A DNA stretch of 64,000 nucleotides from Phycisphaerae bacterium (lineage in GTDB: Bacteria; Planctomycetota; Phycisphaerae; Sedimentisphaerales; Anaerobacaceae). A program made the translations under genes and the position numbers. Positions 9,028 to 21,246 of the stretch are shown in pieces. The first letter of the stretch is position 1; every line of letters begins with the position of its first letter. The notes beneath the pieces were generated by a model. That model saw only the letters and a list, made by a program, of their open reading frames with translations. It searched no databases and was not told the DNA's origin. The stretch is taken from positions 62,001-126,000 of the forward strand of contig JAAYBV010000067.1 of assembly GCA_012744475.1 (NCBI GenBank). Direction: 5' to 3'.

Positions 9028-9395
9028 GGGCAATACCAAAGGTCTTCGTATTCACGGTCACTGCACGTCCTGTGCTGTCTATCGGACATGCGGGGCAGCA
9101 GGCTTAGCAACAAGGGGAAAAAAGCCATAGGCTTGGCACGTGCCCCTCAGCGCGCTCCAGCAGGACAGACCGGCGCACATGGGTCCGAGCCATCGGACAG
9201 GGCTGGAAAGCACCGATAATACATGGCGTCCCCTTCATGAGACGGGGCCGCCCGGGCGGGACAGGAGGCCGTACACGCACGCCTGCAAACCACGCCCAAA
9301 GAATCATCGGTTTGGGTTTAGTTACATCCCCTTCTTGCCGAAAATACCGCTATGAATGGGTCGGCATTATTGGTCCGCCAATTGGGGAAATACAG
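9028..9395. other. Intergenic stretch before the repeat protein
   Basis: These 368 bp separate divergent genes. I see no clear promoter, RNA gene or protein here. An open frame upstream of 9396 encodes only Arg/Gly/Pro-rich sequence and is not convincing. Confidence 0.4.
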
Positions 9396-12035
9396 ATGAC
9401 TCCGACAAGAAACGTCGATCGAGAGGTTCACCTCGCCGATATTCTCCTCAAGAGCCAGGCCGCTCTCGAAGAAGTACGTCGCTACTACAAGTTTGACCGT
9501 CATGCGCATGTGTTTCCTGAGAAGATGTACTTCCTTCTCTCGCATTGTGCGCACCTGTTGTTCTCTCTGTGGTTGACAGAGAAGGAATCCCCATCCGGCA
9601 TCTTCACGTTCAACGCCCATCTGGATGCCCTCGCATCTGAACTCGACTTCGAAGCGCTGCGGTACGTGGATTACAAGAGGCGGACCCTCCATGCCAATGC
9701 GTACGAGGAGCACCTCAAGAATGAGCCGAACTGGTTCAAGTTCTGGCTCAAGGCCCTGCAAGGGTGTGAGGGAGGCCCGCCACTGGACAGCGACGCGTTC
9801 GCACAGCAGGTGCTCACGTATGTGAACAATCCGGAGTTTCTGGAAGGGACCGTCTCCAGGAACGATCGAAAGGCGTTTGCGAACCTCATGAAGACCGATG
9901 CGGGAGCCCGCCTCCTCCACCGCTCCAGCCTGATCCTTGAGGACATGATATCGGCCATCGTACTCCAGTTTGCCAGCTTGGACGCCGGTCTTCATGCGAC
10001 CGAACACATCGCGGCGCTGGTCTGCGTGCTGCGGCAGGCTCGCCTGATCATCGTCAATGAAATCCCCGCCCAAGGCCCGTACGTGCTGTTCTCCAGCAAG
10101 GCTTGGGGGGAGCCGACGTTGCTCCGGGTGCATCCGGGCCAGACTCTCGGCCGTCTCAGGGTCGTCCCCAAACGGGACGGAGGAGGCATCGTCTGCAACT
10201 TCAAATGGACGGCGGGTTCCCAGATCAAGAAGAGGTCGTGGACCCGAGCGACGTCGGCACTGCCGCATCCCTATGAAGAAGAACTCCTCCACACATGGCC
10301 ACGGGATACCTCGACACCCCTCAACTCGTCGAAGCCTCCCTGCGAGGCGGAGCCCTGTTGGCTGGTGCAGCGTGCGGAAGCCAGTCGCCTCAAGGCGATC
10401 TTTCGGCACATCGAGGCCGTGCAGAAATCGCTGTCGGGCAATCCGCGTTGCGCCGGCCTGCTCGGCGACATTGAGGATATCTTCATGGACCGGCACATGG
10501 GCGAGGAGGTGTTGCGGCTCGAGTGGACCTATTTTGACAGGTTGGACCAGTTATTGACCAAGCTCCAATCCGCGTATCGCGAGGCGAGGATCCTGGGAGG
10601 CAAGAACCCCGGCCAGGAGATCATTGACGCCATGTGGCCGGTACAACGTTCCGGCGACGGGCAAGCCAGGTTGTCCGACGTGCCGACGGCGCGATCACCA
10701 AGAACCCCGCTACAACCCCGGTCCGTGAAATGGACCCAGACCGTGCCAGTTGAGAACCACGCATCTCAGGACCAGAATACTCCGCCCGAACAACGTACCG
10801 CCGACACAGCCGTTCACGCGCCGGCGCCGCAGCGCGCCAGTTCAGGCACGACACAGGCTCCTGTGGTCCCGTCCGTACCAGATACTCCCCACAACCGGCG
10901 GACAGCGGACGACACGCACCAGGCTGACATTGCGTGCGCGGTAGCGAAACCCGATGACCACAGCACTCCGAAGCCTGCGGGAGAGAGTCTGCCGCCCGGG
11001 CATCAGGAAGACCGCCGCCCTTGCGCGGACGGGCGTCCGGACAGCGAACAAGGCCAAGAGCCGCAGTCCGAGCAGGGCGCTGACGAGGCGTCTTCGGCAG
11101 TAGAGTCGTGGCGGGATGAGGATCACAGCGAGAACGTGCCGACCCAGTGCGAGGTCGAACTGAGCCAGGAGCCGCAATCCGAGCAGGGCGCTGACGAGGC
11201 GCCTTCGGCACTGGAGTCGTGGCGGGATGAGGATCACAGCGAGAACGTGCCGACCCAATGCGAGGTCGAACTGAGCCAGGAGCCGCAGTCCGAGCAAGAC
11301 ACAGAGGAGGCACCGTCAGCAGTGGAGTCGCACCAGGACGAGGATCAGAACGGGAATGTGCCGACCCAATGCGAAGTCGAACTGAGCCAGGAGCCGCAAT
11401 CCGAGCAAGACGCTGACGAGGCGCCTTCGGCAGTAGAGTCGTGGCGGGATGAGGATCACAACGAGAACGTGCCGACCCAATGCGAGGTCAGCGGCCCGCC
11501 ACTCAACCAAGACTTGTCGAAAAGTCCCCAGACCAAAGACCAGGCCGTTGGCGAAACAACAGAGCCCAAGGAAGAGGAACCGGCCGATTCCCATTCAGAG
11601 CCACAAGTGGTAAAAGAGCCCTGTCACACATACTTCCAAGGGCTCGCAACGAAGGGAACTGTTACGTCAGCGGCGACGCCGAGTTTGCAGACCTCAGGCA
11701 CGCGGCTGGTGCTGCCGCGGCCAAGACCGAACACGAAGGCGGATCAGATCGGCGCTCAGCGGCAATTGCTGACCAGACTGATCGAGCACCACGGGTCTCC
11801 CACGGTTTCAGGCGATGGACTACCCCTGTCCCGCCGGAAGATGGAAGAAGAACTGGGCTGGAAGCCGGCAGAGGTCCAACGTACGATGACAGATATCTTC
11901 GGAAACAGGCCGTTCACGGTGTATAAGCAGAAGTGCAGCGAGGGCACCATCGGCGATTTCCTCGATGCCTGGGCGCAAGACCACTCGAACGGTCAAGTGG
12001 CTGTTTCACCGAACCTCGTCGCGGAGTCAGTCTGA
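9396..12035 (+). CDS. Unrecognised large protein with four 37-residue repeats and C-terminal winged-helix-like region
   Basis: The protein has about 879 residues and I cannot place it in a family. The N-terminal 420 residues look globular and mainly helical (LSHCAHLLFSLWLTEKE, LILEDMISAIVLQFASLDAG). Residues about 430-555 are Pro/Thr/Gln-rich and probably disordered. Four acidic 37-residue repeats follow (core QEPQSEQGADEAPSAVES, then WRDEDHSENVPTQCEVELS), encoded by 111-bp tandem repeats. The last 90 residues contain a candidate DNA-binding winged helix (LLTRLIEHHGSPTVSG, LSRRKMEEELGWKPAEVQRT). I chose ATG 9396; the open frame further upstream is compositionally odd. A smaller basic gene follows on the same strand. 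A DNA-associated scaffold is one inference; confidence is in the gene, not the role. Confidence 0.75.
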   Translation: MTPTRNVDREVHLADILLKSQAALEEVRRYYKFDRHAHVFPEKMYFLLSHCAHLLFSLWLTEKESPSGIFTFNAHLDALASELDFEALRYVDYKRRTLHANAYEEHLKNEPNWFKFWLKALQGCEGGPPLDSDAFAQQVLTYVNNPEFLEGTVSRNDRKAFANLMKTDAGARLLHRSSLILEDMISAIVLQFASLDAGLHATEHIAALVCVLRQARLIIVNEIPAQGPYVLFSSKAWGEPTLLRVHPGQTLGRLRVVPKRDGGGIVCNFKWTAGSQIKKRSWTRATSALPHPYEEELLHTWPRDTSTPLNSSKPPCEAEPCWLVQRAEASRLKAIFRHIEAVQKSLSGNPRCAGLLGDIEDIFMDRHMGEEVLRLEWTYFDRLDQLLTKLQSAYREARILGGKNPGQEIIDAMWPVQRSGDGQARLSDVPTARSPRTPLQPRSVKWTQTVPVENHASQDQNTPPEQRTADTAVHAPAPQRASSGTTQAPVVPSVPDTPHNRRTADDTHQADIACAVAKPDDHSTPKPAGESLPPGHQEDRRPCADGRPDSEQGQEPQSEQGADEASSAVESWRDEDHSENVPTQCEVELSQEPQSEQGADEAPSALESWRDEDHSENVPTQCEVELSQEPQSEQDTEEAPSAVESHQDEDQNGNVPTQCEVELSQEPQSEQDADEAPSAVESWRDEDHNENVPTQCEVSGPPLNQDLSKSPQTKDQAVGETTEPKEEEPADSHSEPQVVKEPCHTYFQGLATKGTVTSAATPSLQTSGTRLVLPRPRPNTKADQIGAQRQLLTRLIEHHGSPTVSGDGLPLSRRKMEEELGWKPAEVQRTMTDIFGNRPFTVYKQKCSEGTIGDFLDAWAQDHSNGQVAVSPNLVAESV
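11058..11501 (+). repeat. Four in-frame 111-bp tandem repeats
   Basis: Units begin at 11058, 11169, 11280 and 11391, exactly 111 bp apart, each encoding 37 residues starting EPQSEQ. Units 1, 2 and 4 are nearly identical while unit 3 has more changes (SHQDEDQNGN). The last dozen bases of unit 4 diverge. The acidic repeats keep the reading frame. Confidence 0.93.
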
Positions 12036-12931: not shown

Positions 12932-13309
12932 CTACTCAGGATCGCTGCTGCAGAGGGAATTAAGGGTCGAGACCTCGGCAGGTCGCAGCGGCAGGGGCAC
13001 ATCGAATTCCATGGCAATCCGATGCGTTCCGCACTCGCCGTTTTCGACCCGGCAGACGCGGCCGGTCCGCGTCATATTGACCGTTGCCGTCGGATCGTCC
13101 CCCTCAAACCGGGGAATACCGAAGCGAACCGTCAGATGCTGGCCTTTGCGCGGGCAGCGGTCGTTCGGCCCACAACTGAACCCAATGCCGCCGCTGGAGA
13201 CGTCGTTCATCAGTCCCTGACACAGCGTCTCGGCAAAATCCTCGCTGAACCAGACCGGCCACTGATAGCCCAATCTCGTTTCCTGCCGGCGCTCGTTGCT
13301 CTGATCCAT
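12932..13309 (-). CDS. PilZ-domain protein (probable c-di-GMP receptor)
   Basis: This 125-residue single-domain protein shows both c-di-GMP-binding motifs of PilZ: an RxxxR element near the N-terminus (RRQETRLGYQWPV) and D-x-S-x-x-G (DVSSGGIGF). PilZ proteins bind cyclic di-GMP and adjust motility, exopolysaccharide or transcription. I chose ATG 13309, preceded by GGAG, over an upstream TTG. It stands alone, leftward, between unrelated genes; its output partner is unknown. Confidence 0.85.
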   Translation of the reverse strand: MDQSNERRQETRLGYQWPVWFSEDFAETLCQGLMNDVSSGGIGFSCGPNDRCPRKGQHLTVRFGIPRFEGDDPTATVNMTRTGRVCRVENGECGTHRIAMEFDVPLPLRPAEVSTLNSLCSSDPE

Positions 13310-13590
13310 CTGGCGTATCTCCAAGTAGGTCGTGGTTCATCCTGTACAGTCGTCCGATTCCCTTGCCGACTTTATCGCAGAAGGACCGCCCGAGCAAATG
13401 GCTACTGAGCCATCCGGGCATCGTCCTGGTCAAGGACGTGCAACTGGGACGCCGTTCAAAGTATGGCTAATCTGGAACCGATTGCCCACCCGTTCGCCTT
13501 CGAATCAGGATGCCCGCGTCGTATTGCGGCAAAATCCTCCCGGATCGGCCGAGCGACCGATAACATATCCTGATTCACGGCGTGCGTTCA

Positions 13591-15699
13591 TCACGTGGGA
13601 CGCGTTCGTGGGCGGAACCGGCGCGTCCCGCGTTCGGCCGACCGCACTGCCGCCACGGCATCCTCGTAGAATGCCTTTTGTGCGCGCACCGCCCGGCCCT
13701 TCCGGGCAACGCGACGATACCGCCCGTCACGGAGCAGCTCCCACGCCTTGACGTTGTCCTTGAAGAGGATTTTGAGAATGCCGACAAGACGCCGACGGAT
13801 TCTCCCATCCCGGACGGGAAACAGCAGTTCAAGCCGCCGGTCGAGATTCCGTCGCATCCAGTCGGCGCTGCTGAGATAGACTTCCTCGTGGCCCCCGTTG
13901 GCGAAGTAGAAGATCCGGGCGTGTTCGAGATAGCGGTCCACGATCGAGCGCACGCCTATCCGCTCGGAGATCCCTTTGATCCCAGGCCGCAAGCAACAGA
14001 TCCCGCGGATATTGAGCATGACATCTGCTCCCGCCTGGCTGGCCTCGTACAAAGCCCGGCAGACGTCCTGGTCCTCCAGCGAGTTGATCTTGGCCATGAT
14101 CAGGCCCGGGTGGTCGGGCGTCGAGACCTGGATCTCCCGCTTGATCAGATCCTTAAGTCTCGTACGCAGGTCGGTAGGCGCGATGACCAGTTGCTGCCAC
14201 TCGACCGCCTCGGACAGACCGGTGAGCAGGTTGAAGAACGCCGCAACATCCGACACCAGTTCACCGTCACAGGTCATCAAGCCGATGTCTGAGTATAGCC
14301 TGGCGGTCCGGTCGTTGTAGTTGCCCGTGCTCAGGTGAACGTAGCGACGCAGGCGCCCCGCCTCTCGACGGATCACGAGCAGCGCCTTGGCATGGGTCTT
14401 GAAGCCCGCGATACCATAGATCACATGGCATCCGGCGTCTTCCAACTGCCTCGCCCAGTTGACGTTCCTTGTCTCATCGAAACGGGCCTTCAGTTCCACC
14501 AGGACGGTCACCTCCTTGCCGTTCTCGGCGGCTCGGGCCAGGGCACGGACAACGGGCGAATCTCCGCTCGTCCGGTAGAGGGTCTGCTTGATCGCCAACA
14601 CCGCGGGATCGTCGGCCGCATTCTGCACCATCTCAACGACCGGATCGAACCGCTCATACGGATGAAACAGCATGACGTCGCGCTCCCGGATCGCCGGCCA
14701 TAGCTCCTCCGCCCCGATCAGGTCCGCCGGCTCTTGGGGAAACCAGTCGCCGGCGCGAAGCCCTTGTACCGGCGGGATGTCAATCAACTGCATCAATGCC
14801 CGCGCATCGAGCAGACCGTCGATCTCGTAGATGTCGTGGTGAAGCAGTCGCAGCGTCGAGCTGAGCCACTGCCTGATGCGAGGATCGGGTCGGACGCTGA
14901 TCTCCAGTCGGACCACGCCACGGTGCTTCCGGGCATGCACGGCGTCCCGCACCATACTGAGCAGGTCCGCCGCCTCGTCTTCCTGAATGGCCACATCGGC
15001 GTCGCGCGTGATACGGAAGACCGCCTCCCTGCCGATCCGGCATCCGCCGAACATGGCCCGCGCATTGTCGAGGATGATCTCCTCCAAGGGGGCAACATAG
15101 ACGCCCTGCTCGGCCGGGATGTTCACGAAACGGGGAAGCGAGCCCGGCACAGGGATGACCACGAGTTTTTGCGGCGACGGATTCGTCCGAGATGCGGACA
15201 CCAGCACCGCCACGAACAGTTGCAAGCCGGGCAGCAACGGGCACGGATCGAGATCCTGGACGGCCAGCGGCGTCAGCACCGGCAACACCTCCGAAGCGAA
15301 GAAGCCGGCCAGGAACTGACGCTGCGTGGGCGTCCAATCCTGACGCCGGACGAGGTGAAAACCGTAAGGTTTCAACTCTGCGAGCGCATCGGCAATCGCG
15401 ACCGCCTGTTGCGTCACCATCTCGTGGACTTTGCCGCTGATGAAGAGCAGTTGTTGGGACGGCGTCAGACCGCTGGGGTCCCTCTTCCGCACGCCCGCCG
15501 CCTTCTGCTGCTTGAGGCCGGCCACGCGGATCATGAAGAACTCATCGAGATTGGAGCTGACGATGGACAGGAACTTCAGCCGCTCGCCCAATGGCACAAT
15601 CTCCGAGCGTCCCTCCTGGAGGACCCGGTCGTTGAATTCCAGCCAGCTCAGCTCTCGATTGATGAACAGGTCCGGAGATTTCAGGTCTTTCTTTCCCAT
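13591..15699 (-). CDS. ppk1: Polyphosphate kinase 1
   Basis: Ppk1 makes inorganic polyphosphate from ATP and also works in reverse. The 702-residue length is normal. Family landmarks are visible: the N-terminal NRELSWLEFNDRVL, FHPYERFDPVVEMVQNA, IKQTLYRTSGDSPVV, and the phosphorylated histidine in GFKTHAKALLV at about residue 436, matching the E. coli His435 position. RYVHLSTGNYNDRTARLY follows. The C-terminus carries a basic tail of about 25 residues. It is the last gene of a six-gene leftward cluster and begins 31 bp after the Ppx/GppA gene, an arrangement consistent with co-transcription of synthesis and hydrolysis. Confidence 0.97.
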   Translation of the reverse strand: MGKKDLKSPDLFINRELSWLEFNDRVLQEGRSEIVPLGERLKFLSIVSSNLDEFFMIRVAGLKQQKAAGVRKRDPSGLTPSQQLLFISGKVHEMVTQQAVAIADALAELKPYGFHLVRRQDWTPTQRQFLAGFFASEVLPVLTPLAVQDLDPCPLLPGLQLFVAVLVSASRTNPSPQKLVVIPVPGSLPRFVNIPAEQGVYVAPLEEIILDNARAMFGGCRIGREAVFRITRDADVAIQEDEAADLLSMVRDAVHARKHRGVVRLEISVRPDPRIRQWLSSTLRLLHHDIYEIDGLLDARALMQLIDIPPVQGLRAGDWFPQEPADLIGAEELWPAIRERDVMLFHPYERFDPVVEMVQNAADDPAVLAIKQTLYRTSGDSPVVRALARAAENGKEVTVLVELKARFDETRNVNWARQLEDAGCHVIYGIAGFKTHAKALLVIRREAGRLRRYVHLSTGNYNDRTARLYSDIGLMTCDGELVSDVAAFFNLLTGLSEAVEWQQLVIAPTDLRTRLKDLIKREIQVSTPDHPGLIMAKINSLEDQDVCRALYEASQAGADVMLNIRGICCLRPGIKGISERIGVRSIVDRYLEHARIFYFANGGHEEVYLSSADWMRRNLDRRLELLFPVRDGRIRRRLVGILKILFKDNVKAWELLRDGRYRRVARKGRAVRAQKAFYEDAVAAVRSAERGTRRFRPRTRPT

Positions 15700-15730
15700 G
15701 GCGCCCTTCTACAGGATTCGTGCGGGACGG

Positions 15731-17302
15731 TTACGGCCGGCCCGTCTCTTCCAGCCGGACCTCCAGTCCGTAGATATCCAGCATCATGTCCCCTACCTCG
15801 GCCAGAGCACGCCGTTCGAGCGTGAAATCGCCACCGGCCCTGACGGAGATGATCAGACTGCTGCCGTCGATTCGTGACTGGAGCTTCTGGATCTGCTGCG
15901 TCCGGCTGCTGTCCAGCGACTCGGCGACGCGCAGCAGCGACGCCAGCTTGTTCACGATCATCCGCCGCTCGCGCGGCAGGGAAATGTAGTCCAGGTGCGA
16001 CGGCTTCGGCCGGCTGCGACGATGGTAGCGCGCCACGTTGGCCACCACCGCCAGTTCGTCCTGGGTCAATCCGACAATCTCCGAGTTGGCGATCAGGTAG
16101 AAGCTATGCTTGTGGTGCGCCCGACTGGCCACAAAGGTCCCGACCTCGTGCAGGATGGCCGCCACTTCCAGCAGGAACCGGTGACGTTCCCCCAATCGAT
16201 GCTCGCCTGCCAACTGGTCGAACAGTTGCACCGCCAGGCGGCGCGTTTGCTCCGCGTGACCGGCGTCCACCTGATATTTCTGCGCGATGCTTCGGGCCGA
16301 CTGAATGATCTCTCGATAGGCCGAGTCGTCCGCTTTCCCCGCCGCGCTGCGCGCCAGGTCCAGGAGCAGACCGTCGCGCACGGACACATCCGACACGATC
16401 ATCCGGTCGGCCCGTGTGGTCTCCAGCAGAACCTGATGGACCAGCAGAGCCGGCATGATGGTCTCGGCATCGGTATACGGGATCTTGTAGGATCGCGCCA
16501 GCTCATCGGCCGTTTGAAGTCGGCAGCGATCGATCAGCTTGCCCAGAGCCTTCGAAGAAACCGCTACGAGGTCTTCTGTCTTCAGGGGTTTGCCCACCTG
16601 CGCGGCCGCCCATCGGGCATCTCCGCCGACTGCGATGAAGGTCTGCACGCTCCTGAGCGGCAGAAGACTGCGGAAGGCCGCGATCGCGCTGGTAATCTGA
16701 TGCTGAATCAGACGAGCGGCCTGGTCGGCGCGTTCCGTCGTGGTGGCCAGCACTTCCTGCATTCGAACCGAGCCGGTGGGAAGGCTCTGCGATGCCGTGA
16801 TTTCTCCATGGCTCAGCACATTCAAAACGGTGCTTCCGCCACCCACCTCCACGACCAGGGCCTTGCCCCTTCGCAACAGCTTCTCCCCCAGGGCCTGGCG
16901 TACCGCCAAGACGGTCAGCCGTCCTTCCTCCGTCACGCTGATCACCGACACTTCGAGCCCGGCGGCCATCAGGGCGCGGTCGACGAAGGTGTCGCCGTTG
17001 GCCGCTTCGCGCACAGCGCTGGTGGCCACCGCACGAACTCGATGAACGCCGTAGGTATTCAGGACGTGCCGGTAGTCACGCAGAATGCCAACGGCGCTGC
17101 GCATCGTCTCGGCCCGGATCCGTCCGGTGCGGAAAACGTCCTGCCCGAGACGCACCGCCCGGCGAAGACGTTCGACGATCTCGAGCCTGCCGTCCGGCAA
17201 CGCCTGCCCGATCATCATGCGGATGGAATTCGACCCGATGTCGATGACCGCCATCGTCTCGGCTGACTTGACCGTCTTGTGCTTCTTGTCTTTCGTCGGC
17301 AT
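15731..17302 (-). CDS. ppx: Ppx/GppA phosphatase with C-terminal HD-type domain
   Basis: This 523-residue enzyme is expected to hydrolyse polyphosphate and/or pppGpp. The N-terminal ASKHA-fold ATPase-like domain shows DIGSNSIRMMIG (residues 21-32) and the second phosphate loop EVGGGSTVLNV. The C-terminal part, from about residue 315, is the HD-like domain typical of long Ppx proteins, although the metal motif reads ILHEVG rather than HD (AAILHEVGTF). The same C-terminal module, with a canonical HD, appears in two other genes of this cluster. It sits between ppk1 (31 bp) and the phosphoesterase-HD gene (69 bp), on the same strand. Confidence 0.93.
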   Translation of the reverse strand: MPTKDKKHKTVKSAETMAVIDIGSNSIRMMIGQALPDGRLEIVERLRRAVRLGQDVFRTGRIRAETMRSAVGILRDYRHVLNTYGVHRVRAVATSAVREAANGDTFVDRALMAAGLEVSVISVTEEGRLTVLAVRQALGEKLLRRGKALVVEVGGGSTVLNVLSHGEITASQSLPTGSVRMQEVLATTTERADQAARLIQHQITSAIAAFRSLLPLRSVQTFIAVGGDARWAAAQVGKPLKTEDLVAVSSKALGKLIDRCRLQTADELARSYKIPYTDAETIMPALLVHQVLLETTRADRMIVSDVSVRDGLLLDLARSAAGKADDSAYREIIQSARSIAQKYQVDAGHAEQTRRLAVQLFDQLAGEHRLGERHRFLLEVAAILHEVGTFVASRAHHKHSFYLIANSEIVGLTQDELAVVANVARYHRRSRPKPSHLDYISLPRERRMIVNKLASLLRVAESLDSSRTQQIQKLQSRIDGSSLIISVRAGGDFTLERRALAEVGDMMLDIYGLEVRLEETGRP

Positions 17303-17371
17303 ATTCGTGCTGCTTTGTCAGAACACAGGGCCTTCCGCGCTGACAGTCCCGGCAACGACGCCCCTGCTGCG

Positions 17372-18748
17372 CTAACCCCGGCCGGAGGCGGTCTTCAACA
17401 CCAGAGACCTTCCAAAGGCCTCACGGAACAGATCGGCTTTTTCCGCCGCACTTTGCAGTTCTGCCTGCGCGGTTTCTCGCACGTCGCAGACAAGGACAAT
17501 CCGGCGGTCCGATACCCGGCACTGAACGCCTCGCACGATGCTGTTATGGCTGCGGTCGAGACCATCGGCCACTCTCAGGATACCCGCCAGCGCACACACC
17601 CGGCGCTGCTCGGACTCACCGAGGTTCCGATAATGCTCGTGCCGCTCGCTGGGCAATGCCTTGCGATGATAGCGCGCTATCAGGGCGACCATCTGCCGCT
17701 CGGCCCGCCCGAACGGCATACCGGAATCGGACAGGATCAACCGCATGGAGGCCTTGTGGTGCCCTTGCGGACCTTCCGCCCAGCCGATGTCGTGCAGCAA
17801 CGCCGCGTAGTGAAGCAGGCTTCGGTCCCGCACACCCATCCGGTGAACTTCTTTCAATGCATCGAAGATCATCAACGCCAGTCTCGTGACCTGATGCGTG
17901 TGCGCGCGCTCGTACCGGCAGCGCTGCGCCAGGGCCAGGACCGTCTGCAATTCTGTGTCCGCGCGCCTCGGCCTGCGCGCATCGGACGATCCAGAGTCGC
18001 CGCGAAGCTGGTCCAGGCTCTTGCCCTTGCGGAAAACGTCGACAAATTCCCTCGGAAGACCTGCGGCATGGACGGCCCGCGCCACGCGGTTGATGTCGTA
18101 GGCGATACGCCGGTGATCGACGTTCAGGTCTTCCTTTGAGAACTCCAGGATCGCATACGAGGCCCGCCAGTCCCCCCCTTCCGGACGTCCGACACTACCC
18201 GGGTTGACGAACCACACCTCCCCTATGCGCCGAGCGAATGGATCGTGAGAATGCCCACAGACGACAACGTCGGCGTGGGCGGCCCGCGCCAGTGCCGCCA
18301 GGCGCTGCCGGGGCGTAGTTGAACCGATCAGCTCGTCGATCGACGCCGGACTGCCATGCACCATCAACACGTCGAATCCCTTGACGTTACGGCGCATCTG
18401 CTCCGGCAGAGATCGCAGTAGATGCCGGCTCTTGCCCTCCAGATGGGCGTCGTTCCATTGAAATGCGATGTACTTGGCGGGAGGCTTTGTGCGCTTCCAC
18501 GCGTCTGCCTTGCACGCGAAATCGAGGACTTTCCGATCGTAGTTGCCGACGATGCTGACCGCCTCGACTTCGCGCAGCCTCCGGAGAACCTCGTTGGGAA
18601 ACGGCGCATATCCGAGCATGTCTCCGAGATTCCAGATCTCGGCGATCCCTTCTTGCGCCGCATCCTCGAGCACGGCCTCCAGCGCCGGCAGATTGCCGTG
18701 GATGTCACTGAGCAGCGCTATCTTCGTCGATCGTGTCTTCCGTGCCAT
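17372..18748 (-). CDS. YfcE-like metallophosphoesterase fused to a Ppx-type HD domain
   Basis: The protein has 458 residues in two parts. Residues 1-250 are a calcineurin-like phosphoesterase: LLSDIHGNLPALEAVLEDA (metal Asp/His), IVGNYDRK, VCGHSHDPF and NPGSVGRP are all present. Residues about 280-458 are a helical HD domain (YAALLHDIGWAEGPQGHHKA, LIARYHRKALPS, ILRVADGLDRSHN) closely like the C-terminal module of Ppx/GppA. I chose ATG 18748 (MARKTRSTKI); the frame continues upstream only through the coding region of the CHAD gene, which it overlaps by 44 bp. Phosphodiesterase on a nucleotide or polyP-linked signal is an inference from context. Confidence 0.85.
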   Translation of the reverse strand: MARKTRSTKIALLSDIHGNLPALEAVLEDAAQEGIAEIWNLGDMLGYAPFPNEVLRRLREVEAVSIVGNYDRKVLDFACKADAWKRTKPPAKYIAFQWNDAHLEGKSRHLLRSLPEQMRRNVKGFDVLMVHGSPASIDELIGSTTPRQRLAALARAAHADVVVCGHSHDPFARRIGEVWFVNPGSVGRPEGGDWRASYAILEFSKEDLNVDHRRIAYDINRVARAVHAAGLPREFVDVFRKGKSLDQLRGDSGSSDARRPRRADTELQTVLALAQRCRYERAHTHQVTRLALMIFDALKEVHRMGVRDRSLLHYAALLHDIGWAEGPQGHHKASMRLILSDSGMPFGRAERQMVALIARYHRKALPSERHEHYRNLGESEQRRVCALAGILRVADGLDRSHNSIVRGVQCRVSDRRIVLVCDVRETAQAELQSAAEKADLFREAFGRSLVLKTASGRG

Positions 18749-19808
18749 GAATCGGCTCATCCTGCGATTCGACTTGCGGCGATGCTGAAGCCGCGTCGTC
18801 CGGTTGCAGCATCGCCTCCAGGCCGTCCCAGAGCCCTTCGGCGCAAAGGTGTTGCCAGTGCTCGAGCAACTCGGCAAAGACCTGCTGCCGGTGCCTGGCG
18901 CGTTCGTCCCGCAGGAATTCAAGTCCATCCCTCAGGCGGTTGAACGGCCGGGCGTGTCCGAAGTATTCGATGGTGCGACCTCGCTCCTGTTTGATGAACG
19001 TTCCCAGATTCCTTACCCAGACATCGCAGTCGTGGACATCTCCCAGCAGCGATTGCACCTTCCTGACGGCGCCAATCGCCCCATCGAGCTGTTTGCCGAA
19101 GGCTGGAACACAGATCTCCATCGTGTATCTGAGCCTCTTGGCGGCGATGCGGACCTGATGATGTCCGTCGATATCCTCCGGATCGCTCAGCGCAGGCTCG
19201 GTGGCCAACAGCTCGCCCTTGCGCCGCAGGATATGAGCAGCCGCCCGTTCCAACACAACCGGGCTTCGCAGGGGCACATCGTGCGTCCTCAATAGGAACC
19301 GGGACTTCTCGACTTCACCGTGCATGTCGACCAGCGTATCGCTGTCGTTCAGCGCTTCCAGCGCTTCGACGACCTTGGGCTGTACGGCGTCGCGGTCCTG
19401 CCGCAGCCGCAGCAGAAGACGCTCGATGCCTGGACGGCGCCGGCGGTCCTTCGTATCCAGGTCGGCGAAGACCTCCTCCACAAAGGCGATCTGCACATCG
19501 AGATCGCGGGCTGCGCCAAGCCCTCGGGTCAATCTTCGCAGCCGTCTTCGCCATCCGGCGGTCTTCTTCGAATCAAAACACTCGGCGAACATGCCCAGCG
19601 CCGCCCGCAGGCGACGCGACGCCACTCGCGTCTGGTGGACCGACTCGGTGTCTTTGTTCTCTCTGACGCCATGAATCTGTCCCACCAGCGCATCGAGCTG
19701 TGCGCTGACGTACTGACAGGCCAAAAGCCGGTAACTCGGATCGGCGGCCCCTGCGCCGGGCTTCGCGTGATGTCGGTTCTGTTCCATCGGTTCCATCGCC
19801 GGCGCCAT
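18705..19808 (-). CDS. CHAD-domain protein (probable polyphosphate binder)
   Basis: CHAD domains are helical, positively charged and known to bind inorganic polyphosphate; they are often genetically tied to Ppk. This 367-residue protein shows two CHAD repeats with the conserved His/Arg faces VHQTRVASRRLRAALGMF (about residues 55-72) and HHQVRIAAKRLRYTMEI (about 215-231). Long basic helices (RRRLRRLTRGLGAARDLD) and the conserved LGDVHDCDVWV follow. No fused CYTH triphosphatase domain is present. It ends inside the phosphoesterase-HD gene (44-bp overlap) and starts 6 bp after the kinase-like gene, so it is tightly embedded in the operon. The start could also be a few codons later. Confidence 0.92.
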   Translation of the reverse strand: MAPAMEPMEQNRHHAKPGAGAADPSYRLLACQYVSAQLDALVGQIHGVRENKDTESVHQTRVASRRLRAALGMFAECFDSKKTAGWRRRLRRLTRGLGAARDLDVQIAFVEEVFADLDTKDRRRRPGIERLLLRLRQDRDAVQPKVVEALEALNDSDTLVDMHGEVEKSRFLLRTHDVPLRSPVVLERAAAHILRRKGELLATEPALSDPEDIDGHHQVRIAAKRLRYTMEICVPAFGKQLDGAIGAVRKVQSLLGDVHDCDVWVRNLGTFIKQERGRTIEYFGHARPFNRLRDGLEFLRDERARHRQQVFAELLEHWQHLCAEGLWDGLEAMLQPDDAASASPQVESQDEPIHGTEDTIDEDSAAQ

Positions 19809-19814
19809 TGGACG

Positions 19815-20564
19815 TCAGGCCATCAACTCCTGCGACCACTTCTCGGCCCAAGCTGATCTGCTGCCCTCAAGCAAAGCGACAAATGCGGCCAGGGCCCGAC
19901 GTGCGTCGCCGATCGGGTAGTAGAATGCGTCCCAATGCTCGCTGTCTTCGCCGTCATGGCAGGGAATGACATGGTCGAACCGCCACGCCTGTCGCATCTC
20001 GCCACAGGCGCTGGCCGCACGGACCTCGATGTTCTCCAGGTCTTTCTCTGAGAGAATCCCCTTCTGTCTTGCCGTGCGGCGCAGGAGCTTGCGCCGCATG
20101 ACGTCGGTAACGAATTCGGGCAGGCACACGCTTGGGGTTCGCGCCTTCAATTCGACGATCTCCTCAGCCGCCAGCGGCGACAGGAAGATGCTCAAGACCG
20201 GAATCTGCTGCACTTGGGCGAAATCGAGCAACCCCGAGCCGATGAACGGATTGCCTTCAAAGAACACGTCGCAAGTCGCGTCTGACGCACATCGCAGTCC
20301 CAGTTCGCGCGTATCGAACGCCTGCAGGTCGCTGCGGACGTCGAAGACACGGAACTGTGGTTGGTCGCGGAGGCTCTCGATGAACTGGCGGCTTCGAAAA
20401 TGAAAATCGACCCCATCCACCTCCCCCGGGCGCGGCGCCCGGCTGTCATAGAGCACGAACTTGGCCTGCCGGCCGGCGATATCGGGGTGAAACTTCTTCA
20501 ACGCCGTATAGAGCGGCCCCTTACCCACACAGGATGGCCCGGAGAGGATGACCAGACGTCCCAC
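19815..20564 (-). CDS. Guanylate-kinase-like P-loop protein with altered nucleotide motifs
   Basis: The 249-residue protein begins with a guanylate-kinase-like P-loop, LVILSGPSCVGKGPLYTAL, where the Ser/Thr that follows GK or GKG in true Gmk is replaced by Pro. It keeps the GMP-domain stretch SRAPRPGEVDGVDFHF. Residues expected to hold GMP later in the domain are not obvious (VFDVRSDLQAFDTRELG). It is longer than housekeeping Gmk (about 200 residues), with a 50-residue C-terminal extension. Being inside a polyP operon, it may phosphorylate or sense another nucleotide. The start is GTG 20564 after a GGGGGA. Fold is confident; substrate is open. Confidence 0.78.
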   Translation of the reverse strand: MGRLVILSGPSCVGKGPLYTALKKFHPDIAGRQAKFVLYDSRAPRPGEVDGVDFHFRSRQFIESLRDQPQFRVFDVRSDLQAFDTRELGLRCASDATCDVFFEGNPFIGSGLLDFAQVQQIPVLSIFLSPLAAEEIVELKARTPSVCLPEFVTDVMRRKLLRRTARQKGILSEKDLENIEVRAASACGEMRQAWRFDHVIPCHDGEDSEHWDAFYYPIGDARRALAAFVALLEGSRSAWAEKWSQELMA

Positions 20565-20601
20565 GGTATCCCCCGTTCGACGAATCTGTTCCGTTCAATT
20601 C

Positions 20602-21246
20602 TCAACGTATGGAAGCATACGCCGCCCCGGCCGCCGAATCAAGGCCAAAGCGGCGGCGCCCGCGGGCCGTTTCGACCTCGATCGCCACACACTTGCGAAA
20701 GGTCTTCTCGAAGAGATCCGCCTTGGGAAGGCTCCTGCGGATGCGCGGCGCGCCGTGGCCGAACACCGTCAGCCTCACGGAACCAGACCGTGCTCTACAA
20801 CGCAGGTCCTTCACCCGACCGGCCTGTGCCTTGTCCAGTCCGTCCGCGAGACGCAACAGCGCTGCCAGCTTGGCCACATAGCGCCGGTCATCCGGCTCCA
20901 GATCTTTGAAGTACGAGTGCCGCTTGCTGGGCAGCGGTCCCCGATGGTAACGGGCGACCAGGCCGATCATGACCCGCTCATGCCGTCGGAACGGCAATTC
21001 CGAAGAGCCGATAATGATGTCGCGCGCCGCCTTGTGGTGGCCTCTCGGATTCTGCTTCTTGCCGATGTCGTGAAGAAGGGCGGCGGCATGAATCCATCTC
21101 CGCTCGGTGTTGCCCATGCCGTGGAGCGGCCGGAGTTGATCGAACAACCGAAGCGCCAGCCTGCTCACACAAAGGGCGTGCTCCTTCTCAAAACGGCACG
21201 CGACGCCCAGTGCGATTGTCCTATTGAACCTATCCCTGCAATTCAC
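20602..21246 (-). CDS. Stand-alone HD-domain protein of the Ppx C-terminal type
   Basis: This 214-residue protein consists only of the HD module seen at the ends of the Ppx/GppA and phosphoesterase genes downstream. Landmarks are HAAALLHDIGKKQNPRGHHK, VGLVARYHRGPLPSKR and LLRLADGLDKAQAG. HD domains hydrolyse phosphate esters in a metal-dependent way. It appears to be the first gene of the leftward cluster, starting at GTG 21246 after AAAGG, 37 bp ahead of the kinase-like gene. No enzyme activity is proven for this subgroup; regulation of polyP or alarmone level is inferred from company. Confidence 0.85.
   Translation of the reverse strand: MNCRDRFNRTIALGVACRFEKEHALCVSRLALRLFDQLRPLHGMGNTERRWIHAAALLHDIGKKQNPRGHHKAARDIIIGSSELPFRRHERVMIGLVARYHRGPLPSKRHSYFKDLEPDDRRYVAKLAALLRLADGLDKAQAGRVKDLRCRARSGSVRLTVFGHGAPRIRRSLPKADLFEKTFRKCVAIEVETARGRRRFGLDSAAGAAYASIR

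Follow-up and report, generated by a model that had tools for sequence, protein, structure and literature searches.

A conserved six-gene polyphosphate cluster with extra Ppx-type HD modules and a Gmk-like kinase in a Phycisphaerae bacterium

Polyphosphate (polyP) is made by polyphosphate kinases of the Ppk1 family, and Ppx is the enzyme to which its degradation in bacteria is usually attributed. In the closest described arrangement, the ppk-ppx polyphosphate operon of the E. coli type, Ppk1 adjoins Ppx; CHAD proteins, which bind polyP and localise to polyP granules, are frequent in polyP operons, where they are also known as stand-alone proteins (PMC6537752). The remaining parts of the locus described here are closest to domain III of Ppx/GppA, to the asymmetric Ap4A hydrolase SapH and the YfcE-type metallophosphoesterases, and to guanylate kinase.

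The window (the whole stretch of DNA that was analysed, 64,000 nucleotides) carries at 13591-21246 six minus-strand ORFs, encoding a stand-alone HD protein (HDa), a Gmk-like kinase, CHAD, a metallophosphoesterase-HD protein (MPE-HD), Ppx-HD and Ppk1. Compared with the ppk-ppx operon, the window adds the extra HD gene, the MPE-HD gene and the Gmk-like kinase gene, and its Ppx has a damaged ASKHA site; no description of this gene set was found in the open-access literature. The locus is a testable case, i.e. a Ppx that is seemingly impaired or missing beside Ppk1, with other hydrolases with intact metal sites adjoining a polyP-binding protein.

Gene content and genomic context

The six leftward genes, with the domains and the tight spacing reported in the initial annotation, were recovered as ORFs with Pfam/NCBIfam matches (Table 1). 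The intergenic distances are 31, 69, -56, 6 and 37 bp in order of rising coordinate, i.e. gaps of 6-69 bp and one overlap of 56 bp, between the CHAD and MPE-HD genes. All three HD-bearing proteins matched both Ppx-GppA_III (PF21447) and HD in Pfam (E-values 4e-15, 3e-17 and 7e-31); the other Pfam matches were Guanylate_kin (3e-8), CHAD (166 bits against a gathering score of 25.6), Metallophos_2 (1e-28) and Ppx-GppA (8e-37), and Ppk1 has the full set of its four domains. The start of MPE-HD is most likely at 18760 and not at 18928, as M57 of the longer frame aligns with the starts of its relatives.

Table 1. Features of the polyphosphate cluster and its downstream neighbour, in window coordinates
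Feature	Position	Strand	Basis
HDa, stand-alone HD protein, 214 aa, Ppx domain III type	20602..21246	-	Pfam PF21447 3.9e-15, motif table, tree
Gmk-like P-loop kinase, 249 aa, GPSCxGK[SGT]PL family	19815..20564	-	Guanylate_kin match (Pfam), alignment, model
P-loop of the Gmk-like protein (residues 9-18), GPSCVGKGPL	20511..20540	-	family alignment
CHAD protein, 367 aa, polyP-binding domain family	18705..19808	-	PF05235 1.5e-48
MPE-HD, fusion of a metallophosphoesterase domain and a Ppx-type HD module, 462 aa	17372..18760	-	Pfam, alignment with relatives
Ppx/GppA-HD protein, 523 aa, predicted catalytically impaired	15731..17302	-	Pfam, residue alignment
V159 codon of Ppx, site of lost ASKHA glutamate (E143 in D. 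radiodurans PPX)	16826..16828	-	alignment
E386 codon of Ppx, where the HD motif reads HE	16145..16147	-	motif table
Ppk1 polyphosphate kinase, 702 aa	13591..15699	-	TIGR03705 814 bits (cut-off 466), Pfam
PilZ-domain gene, 266 bp downstream of Ppk1	12932..13324	-	homologue in relatives

A search of the source genome found the CHAD gene of the window to be its only one and a single Ppx gene; a canonical gmk and a PPK2 gene are located on other contigs. Scans for promoters and terminators gave no signal above chance, and the sole match of an Rfam and tRNA scan of the window was a tRNA-Arg outside the cluster. PilZ homologues are also found downstream of Ppk1 in three close relatives (L104, L105, L107); it is uncertain whether the PilZ-domain gene belongs to the polyP unit. 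Further downstream, at 9237-12035, an ORF of 932 aa contains in-frame repeats that follow the pattern EPQSEQ..DEAPSA.ESWRDEDH.ENVPTQCEVELSQ. Four relatives have a PPK2 gene at the border of the cluster (L061:6098-6907; L104:6263-7072; L106; L107), once on the same strand and three times divergently.

Conservation of the gene neighbourhood

A total of 198 genomes of the class were surveyed, and the regions around the best matches were read. The complete order HDa, Gmk-like, CHAD, MPE-HD, Ppx-HD, Ppk1 is found also in two other Planctomycetota (L104 and L106; the contig of the latter stops within Ppk1), and the same array minus HDa only in two more loci (L105, L107). A further genome of the family to which the window belongs (G190; locus L061, same record as L109) has all six positions occupied, with most of the MPE domain missing: in its fourth gene (L061:9596-10228) a short phosphoesterase-like start, MREKDIRVAVVSDVHGDSPALEAVL / VSDVHGDSPALEAVL, is followed immediately by the HD module, suggesting an internal deletion in the MPE domain that left a remnant. 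The other seven sampled genomes of this family are all without Gmk-like, Ppx and Ppk1 matches.

Smaller versions of the array comprise CHAD-[MPE-HD]-Ppx-Ppk1 (G183, G123), CHAD-[MPE-HD]-Ppk1 (G175, G141, G088), CHAD-HD-Ppx-Ppk1 (G017, G028, G042, G049, G087), and CHAD-HD with the other cluster genes not nearby (G066, G060). The CHAD gene adjoins the second HD gene in 18 loci, the window included. This pair is intact even where Ppx and Ppk1 are located elsewhere (L073, L076), and it is kept beside a more distant type of Ppk1 (518-542 bits in L071, L072 and L074, vs 858-1015 bits in most cluster-type relatives). Of the survey genomes, 14 have an extra HD gene linked to CHAD, and every one of them encodes Ppk1, for which the baseline is 100 of 198 (p 4e-5, kinship not corrected). 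The conserved order and the CHAD link thus bear out the initial proposal of a dedicated polyP unit; the neighbourhood survey, in which random adjacency would have become apparent, found the genes to keep their set and order. The cluster is real and conserved, not accidental.

Inherited synteny without functional meaning, i.e. genes linked only through the relatedness of the compared genomes, is accordingly very improbable and is already largely refuted. It would account for locus L107, which also has the unrelated upstream genes of the window (PRC-barrel, DUF1570-like), but not for the distant families of the class, where only the polyP genes stay clustered, nor for the recurrence of CHAD, HD and Gmk-like genes in NPL-UPA2 and of CHAD and Gmk-like genes in deltaproteobacteria, Bacteroidales, Verrucomicrobia and Anaerolineales. 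Gene fusions speak against it as well: CHAD, Ppx and HD form a single chain in six genomes (L089, L092, L196, L197, L198, L200), and in NPL-UPA2 (L113, L130) a CHAD-HD_4 fusion is followed by a solo HD gene and a Gmk-like gene.

HD modules, the metallophosphoesterase and the altered Ppx

The HD modules of HDa and of MPE-HD match Ppx/GppA domain III (PF21447) above cut-off and both have the H, HD, HH, H and D metal residues; they differ from domain III in that they are not fused to a Ppx catalytic domain, in their complete HD metal set where the Ppx of the operon has HE, and in forming a separate branch of the tree. In this tree (59 modules) the extra modules, solo and MPE-fused, lie on one side of a branch with support 99/94 and the Ppx modules on the opposite side; HDa and the second HD gene represent separate lineages, and the MPE fusion state changes several times among the extra modules. 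The metal residues (H, HD, HH, RxH, final D) are complete in 25/25 extra modules, and read H, HDIG, HH, RYH and ADGLD in HDa. Profiles and tree were also the check on non-homology of the three HD modules, and they agree with the homology that had been claimed. In the cluster the HD module known as a fused part of Ppx has free-standing relatives, and these are of interest for the origin of Ppx. For one solo HD gene of the same type (L195:6124-6750), the 13 kb read showed neither CHAD nor any other polyP gene, which counts against the polyP reading preferred below.

The calcineurin-like metallophosphoesterase motifs (DxH, GD, GNxD, H, GHxH) are invariant in 10/10 MPE-HD proteins, as are the HD motif residues (10/10). 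The predicted model of MPE-HD has a pLDDT of 89.0 and a pTM of 0.55, and because of the latter the placement of the two domains relative to each other is unreliable. By structure comparison of the model, the MPE part resembles SapH (3qfm; TMt 0.82-0.84, 31% identity) and the HD part a C-terminal Ppx fragment (3rf0; TMt 0.77). The MPE domain thus has its fold and motifs in common with SapH and the YfcE-type enzymes (TIGR00040 above cut-off), and differs in being fused to a Ppx-type HD module and in being encoded beside CHAD and Ppk1.

Because the closest solved relative is an Ap4A hydrolase, a nucleotide substrate is possible for the MPE domain. The cluster might then be a nucleotide-messenger unit, with Ap4A-like dinucleotides, cyclic nucleotides or (p)ppGpp as substrates of the MPE and HD proteins and with CHAD and Ppk1 as the coupling to the polyP pool. 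SapH itself acts both as asymmetric Ap4A hydrolase and as phosphodiesterase, nucleotides are frequent substrates of HD domains, Ppx domain III is reportedly a homologue of cyclic nucleotide phosphodiesterases (Alvarado 2006), and a Gmk-like gene lies inside the cluster. However, the six genes include no messenger synthetase, the HD modules are closest to a Ppx domain and are linked to CHAD, and the Gmk-like protein is without the guanine-recognition residues; we regard this alternative as doubtful. Control of a phosphate messenger had been the role suggested initially for the HD and phosphoesterase parts; hydrolysis of polyP or a related phosphoanhydride would explain these parts at least as well.

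The Ppx of the window belongs to its family (PF02541, 127.7 bits; PF21447, 107.9 bits), but not all catalytic acids of the ASKHA site (D7, E114, D136 and E143 of D. radiodurans PPX as reference) are retained. In the alignment to this protein, V159 is equivalent to E143 and E152 to D136, and the catalytic base is kept (E126, equivalent to E114). None of the 18 Ppx of this clade (that of the window and those of 17 relatives) has the DxGGGSxE glutamate: V, L, M, I or T stands in its place, E mostly replaces the aspartate, and HE is found at the HD motif. The 15 further Ppx from the class all have the glutamate, and their motif is HD. In D. radiodurans PPX (DrPPX), exchange E143A lowers kcat/Km from 2.28 to 0.04 (~57-fold), and D136A to 0.1 (PMC11234463). 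Judged from these residues, the Ppx of the operon probably either has low activity or serves as a regulator that binds polyP. The lost glutamate had gone unnoticed in the initial annotation, as had the lost guanine-recognition residues of the Gmk-like family (below).

Extra HD modules adjoin 14 of the 18 glutamate-less Ppx and 0 of the 15 others; because the 18 are kin and largely one clade, glutamate loss and extra HD genes are close to one event and not independent. The HE motif was considered as a sign of compensation by the extra HD genes, and this was toned down, for the same reason and because the solved Ppx of D. radiodurans and Yersinia also have HE, so that HE alone does not mean inactivity. 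Two of the genomes with CHAD-[MPE-HD]-Ppk1 (G141, G088) gave no Ppx/GppA match in a genome search and the third (G175) a sub-threshold match only. This absence is suggestive of a replacement of Ppx by MPE-HD and was not taken as proof, since 26 of the 100 Ppk1 genomes of the class are without a Ppx match over cut-off (including G082, in which a contig end cuts the Ppx), most of them without MPE-HD; Ppx absence by itself does not indicate replacement.

The assignment of the cluster to polyP is strong; what the extra parts catalyse is a matter of hypothesis. Our preferred reading, for which we see about an even chance, is an operon to make, hold and break polyP: Ppk1 makes and CHAD holds polyP, as established for these families, and HDa and MPE-HD, with complete metal sites and encoded beside CHAD, would supply the hydrolysis of polyP or a closely related phosphoanhydride, with the Ppx, which has lost a catalytic acid, probably being impaired. 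Alternatively, HDa and MPE-HD might be regulatory or structural granule parts, which would bind metal and polyP together with CHAD and tune Ppk1 or Ppx non-catalytically, with the Ppx working despite its altered site. The granule localisation of CHAD proteins (PMC6537752) and the retained catalytic base of the window's Ppx are in line with this; however, invariance of all metal ligands in the extra modules is unusual for non-catalytic parts, the lost residue is costly in DrPPX (PMC11234463, see above), and in four loci (L077, L078, L079, L094) the catalytic base is lost as well, which together make the alternative improbable.

The Gmk-like kinase family

The P-loop of the Gmk-like protein reads GPSCVGKGPL, vs GPSGVGKST in the genome's own gmk. 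The alteration noted in the initial annotation is therefore real; it is a signature, GPSCxGK[SGT]PL, shared by nearly all relatives in a multi-phylum family, and neither represents decay nor looks inactivating. A dead P-loop was rejected, as the Walker A lysine is retained and GKS or GKT is present in about half of the members. The model of the protein (pLDDT 92.8) has guanylate kinase 8egl as its best PDB match (Z 19.7, rmsd 2.2 over 179 residues), and the score with TIGR03263 is 44.6 bits, below the equivalog cut-off of 160.45. Among the near-invariant positions in 83 aligned members are G9, P10, S11, G14, K15, P17, R42, R45, E48, G51, D79, H203 to D207, and W211.

The positions S51, E86, Y95 and D117 of the genome's own gmk, which we take to be the guanosine-monophosphate-binding residues, are S, E, Y and D in 22/22 canonical Gmk. 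The Gmk-like protein has L38, V73, Q81 and N105 at these sites, and the 83 members have mostly L, V, Q and N. The family thus has the fold, the P-loop lysine, R42, R45, the Y54-equivalent and the LID arginines in common with guanylate kinase, and differs from it in the replaced guanine-recognition residues, the P-loop signature and an extra invariant HDGED..W motif. It is widespread and likely misannotated as guanylate kinase.

For 80 loci of the family organism names were added, and neighbours were annotated by profiles; neighbour clustering, which this annotation replaced, had yielded antisense frames and general genes for the most part. In 15/86 loci besides the window, a CHAD gene is located no more than 5 kb from the Gmk-like gene, seven of these loci being in Phycisphaerae and eight elsewhere (records of NPL-UPA2, Deltaproteobacteria or Desulfobacterales, Bacteroidales, Verrucomicrobia, and Anaerolineales). 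For the latter eight (8/70), p is about 1e-6 to 1e-8, a rough estimate which assumes 2-4 CHAD genes per 4-Mb genome and is uncorrected for kinship. Since most members are without a nearby polyP gene, the role of the family is not confined to polyP operons.

In the proposed operon the Gmk-like protein would be a P-loop kinase that has lost its guanine recognition, with a probable role in phosphate transfer to or from a phosphate acceptor other than GMP that is connected with the polyP pool; this is the weakest step of the scheme. A tentative and rather unlikely joint proposal is that the solo and MPE-fused Ppx-type HD modules constitute a new polyphosphatase class, associated with CHAD, that replaced a disabled Ppx, and that the GPSCxGK[SGT]PL family are kinases for a polyP-related acceptor other than GMP; if true, one unit would hold two undescribed enzyme types, one of them, the Gmk-like family, found in many phyla.

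Other P-loop proteins were observed at these loci. Thymidylate-kinase-like genes lie near CHAD and Gmk-like genes in NPL-UPA2 (L113:190-1586 and L130:4178-5562, a tandem pair in each) and in Anaerolineales (L182:4507-5268), and may be additional P-loop kinases linked to polyP. Three deltaproteobacterial genomes encode a ParA-like ATPase (L177:7216-8004, L180:7118-7876, L140:7036-7812) between their CHAD and Gmk-like genes, with CYTH or SixA-like genes nearby; this ATPase could serve the positioning of polyP granules.
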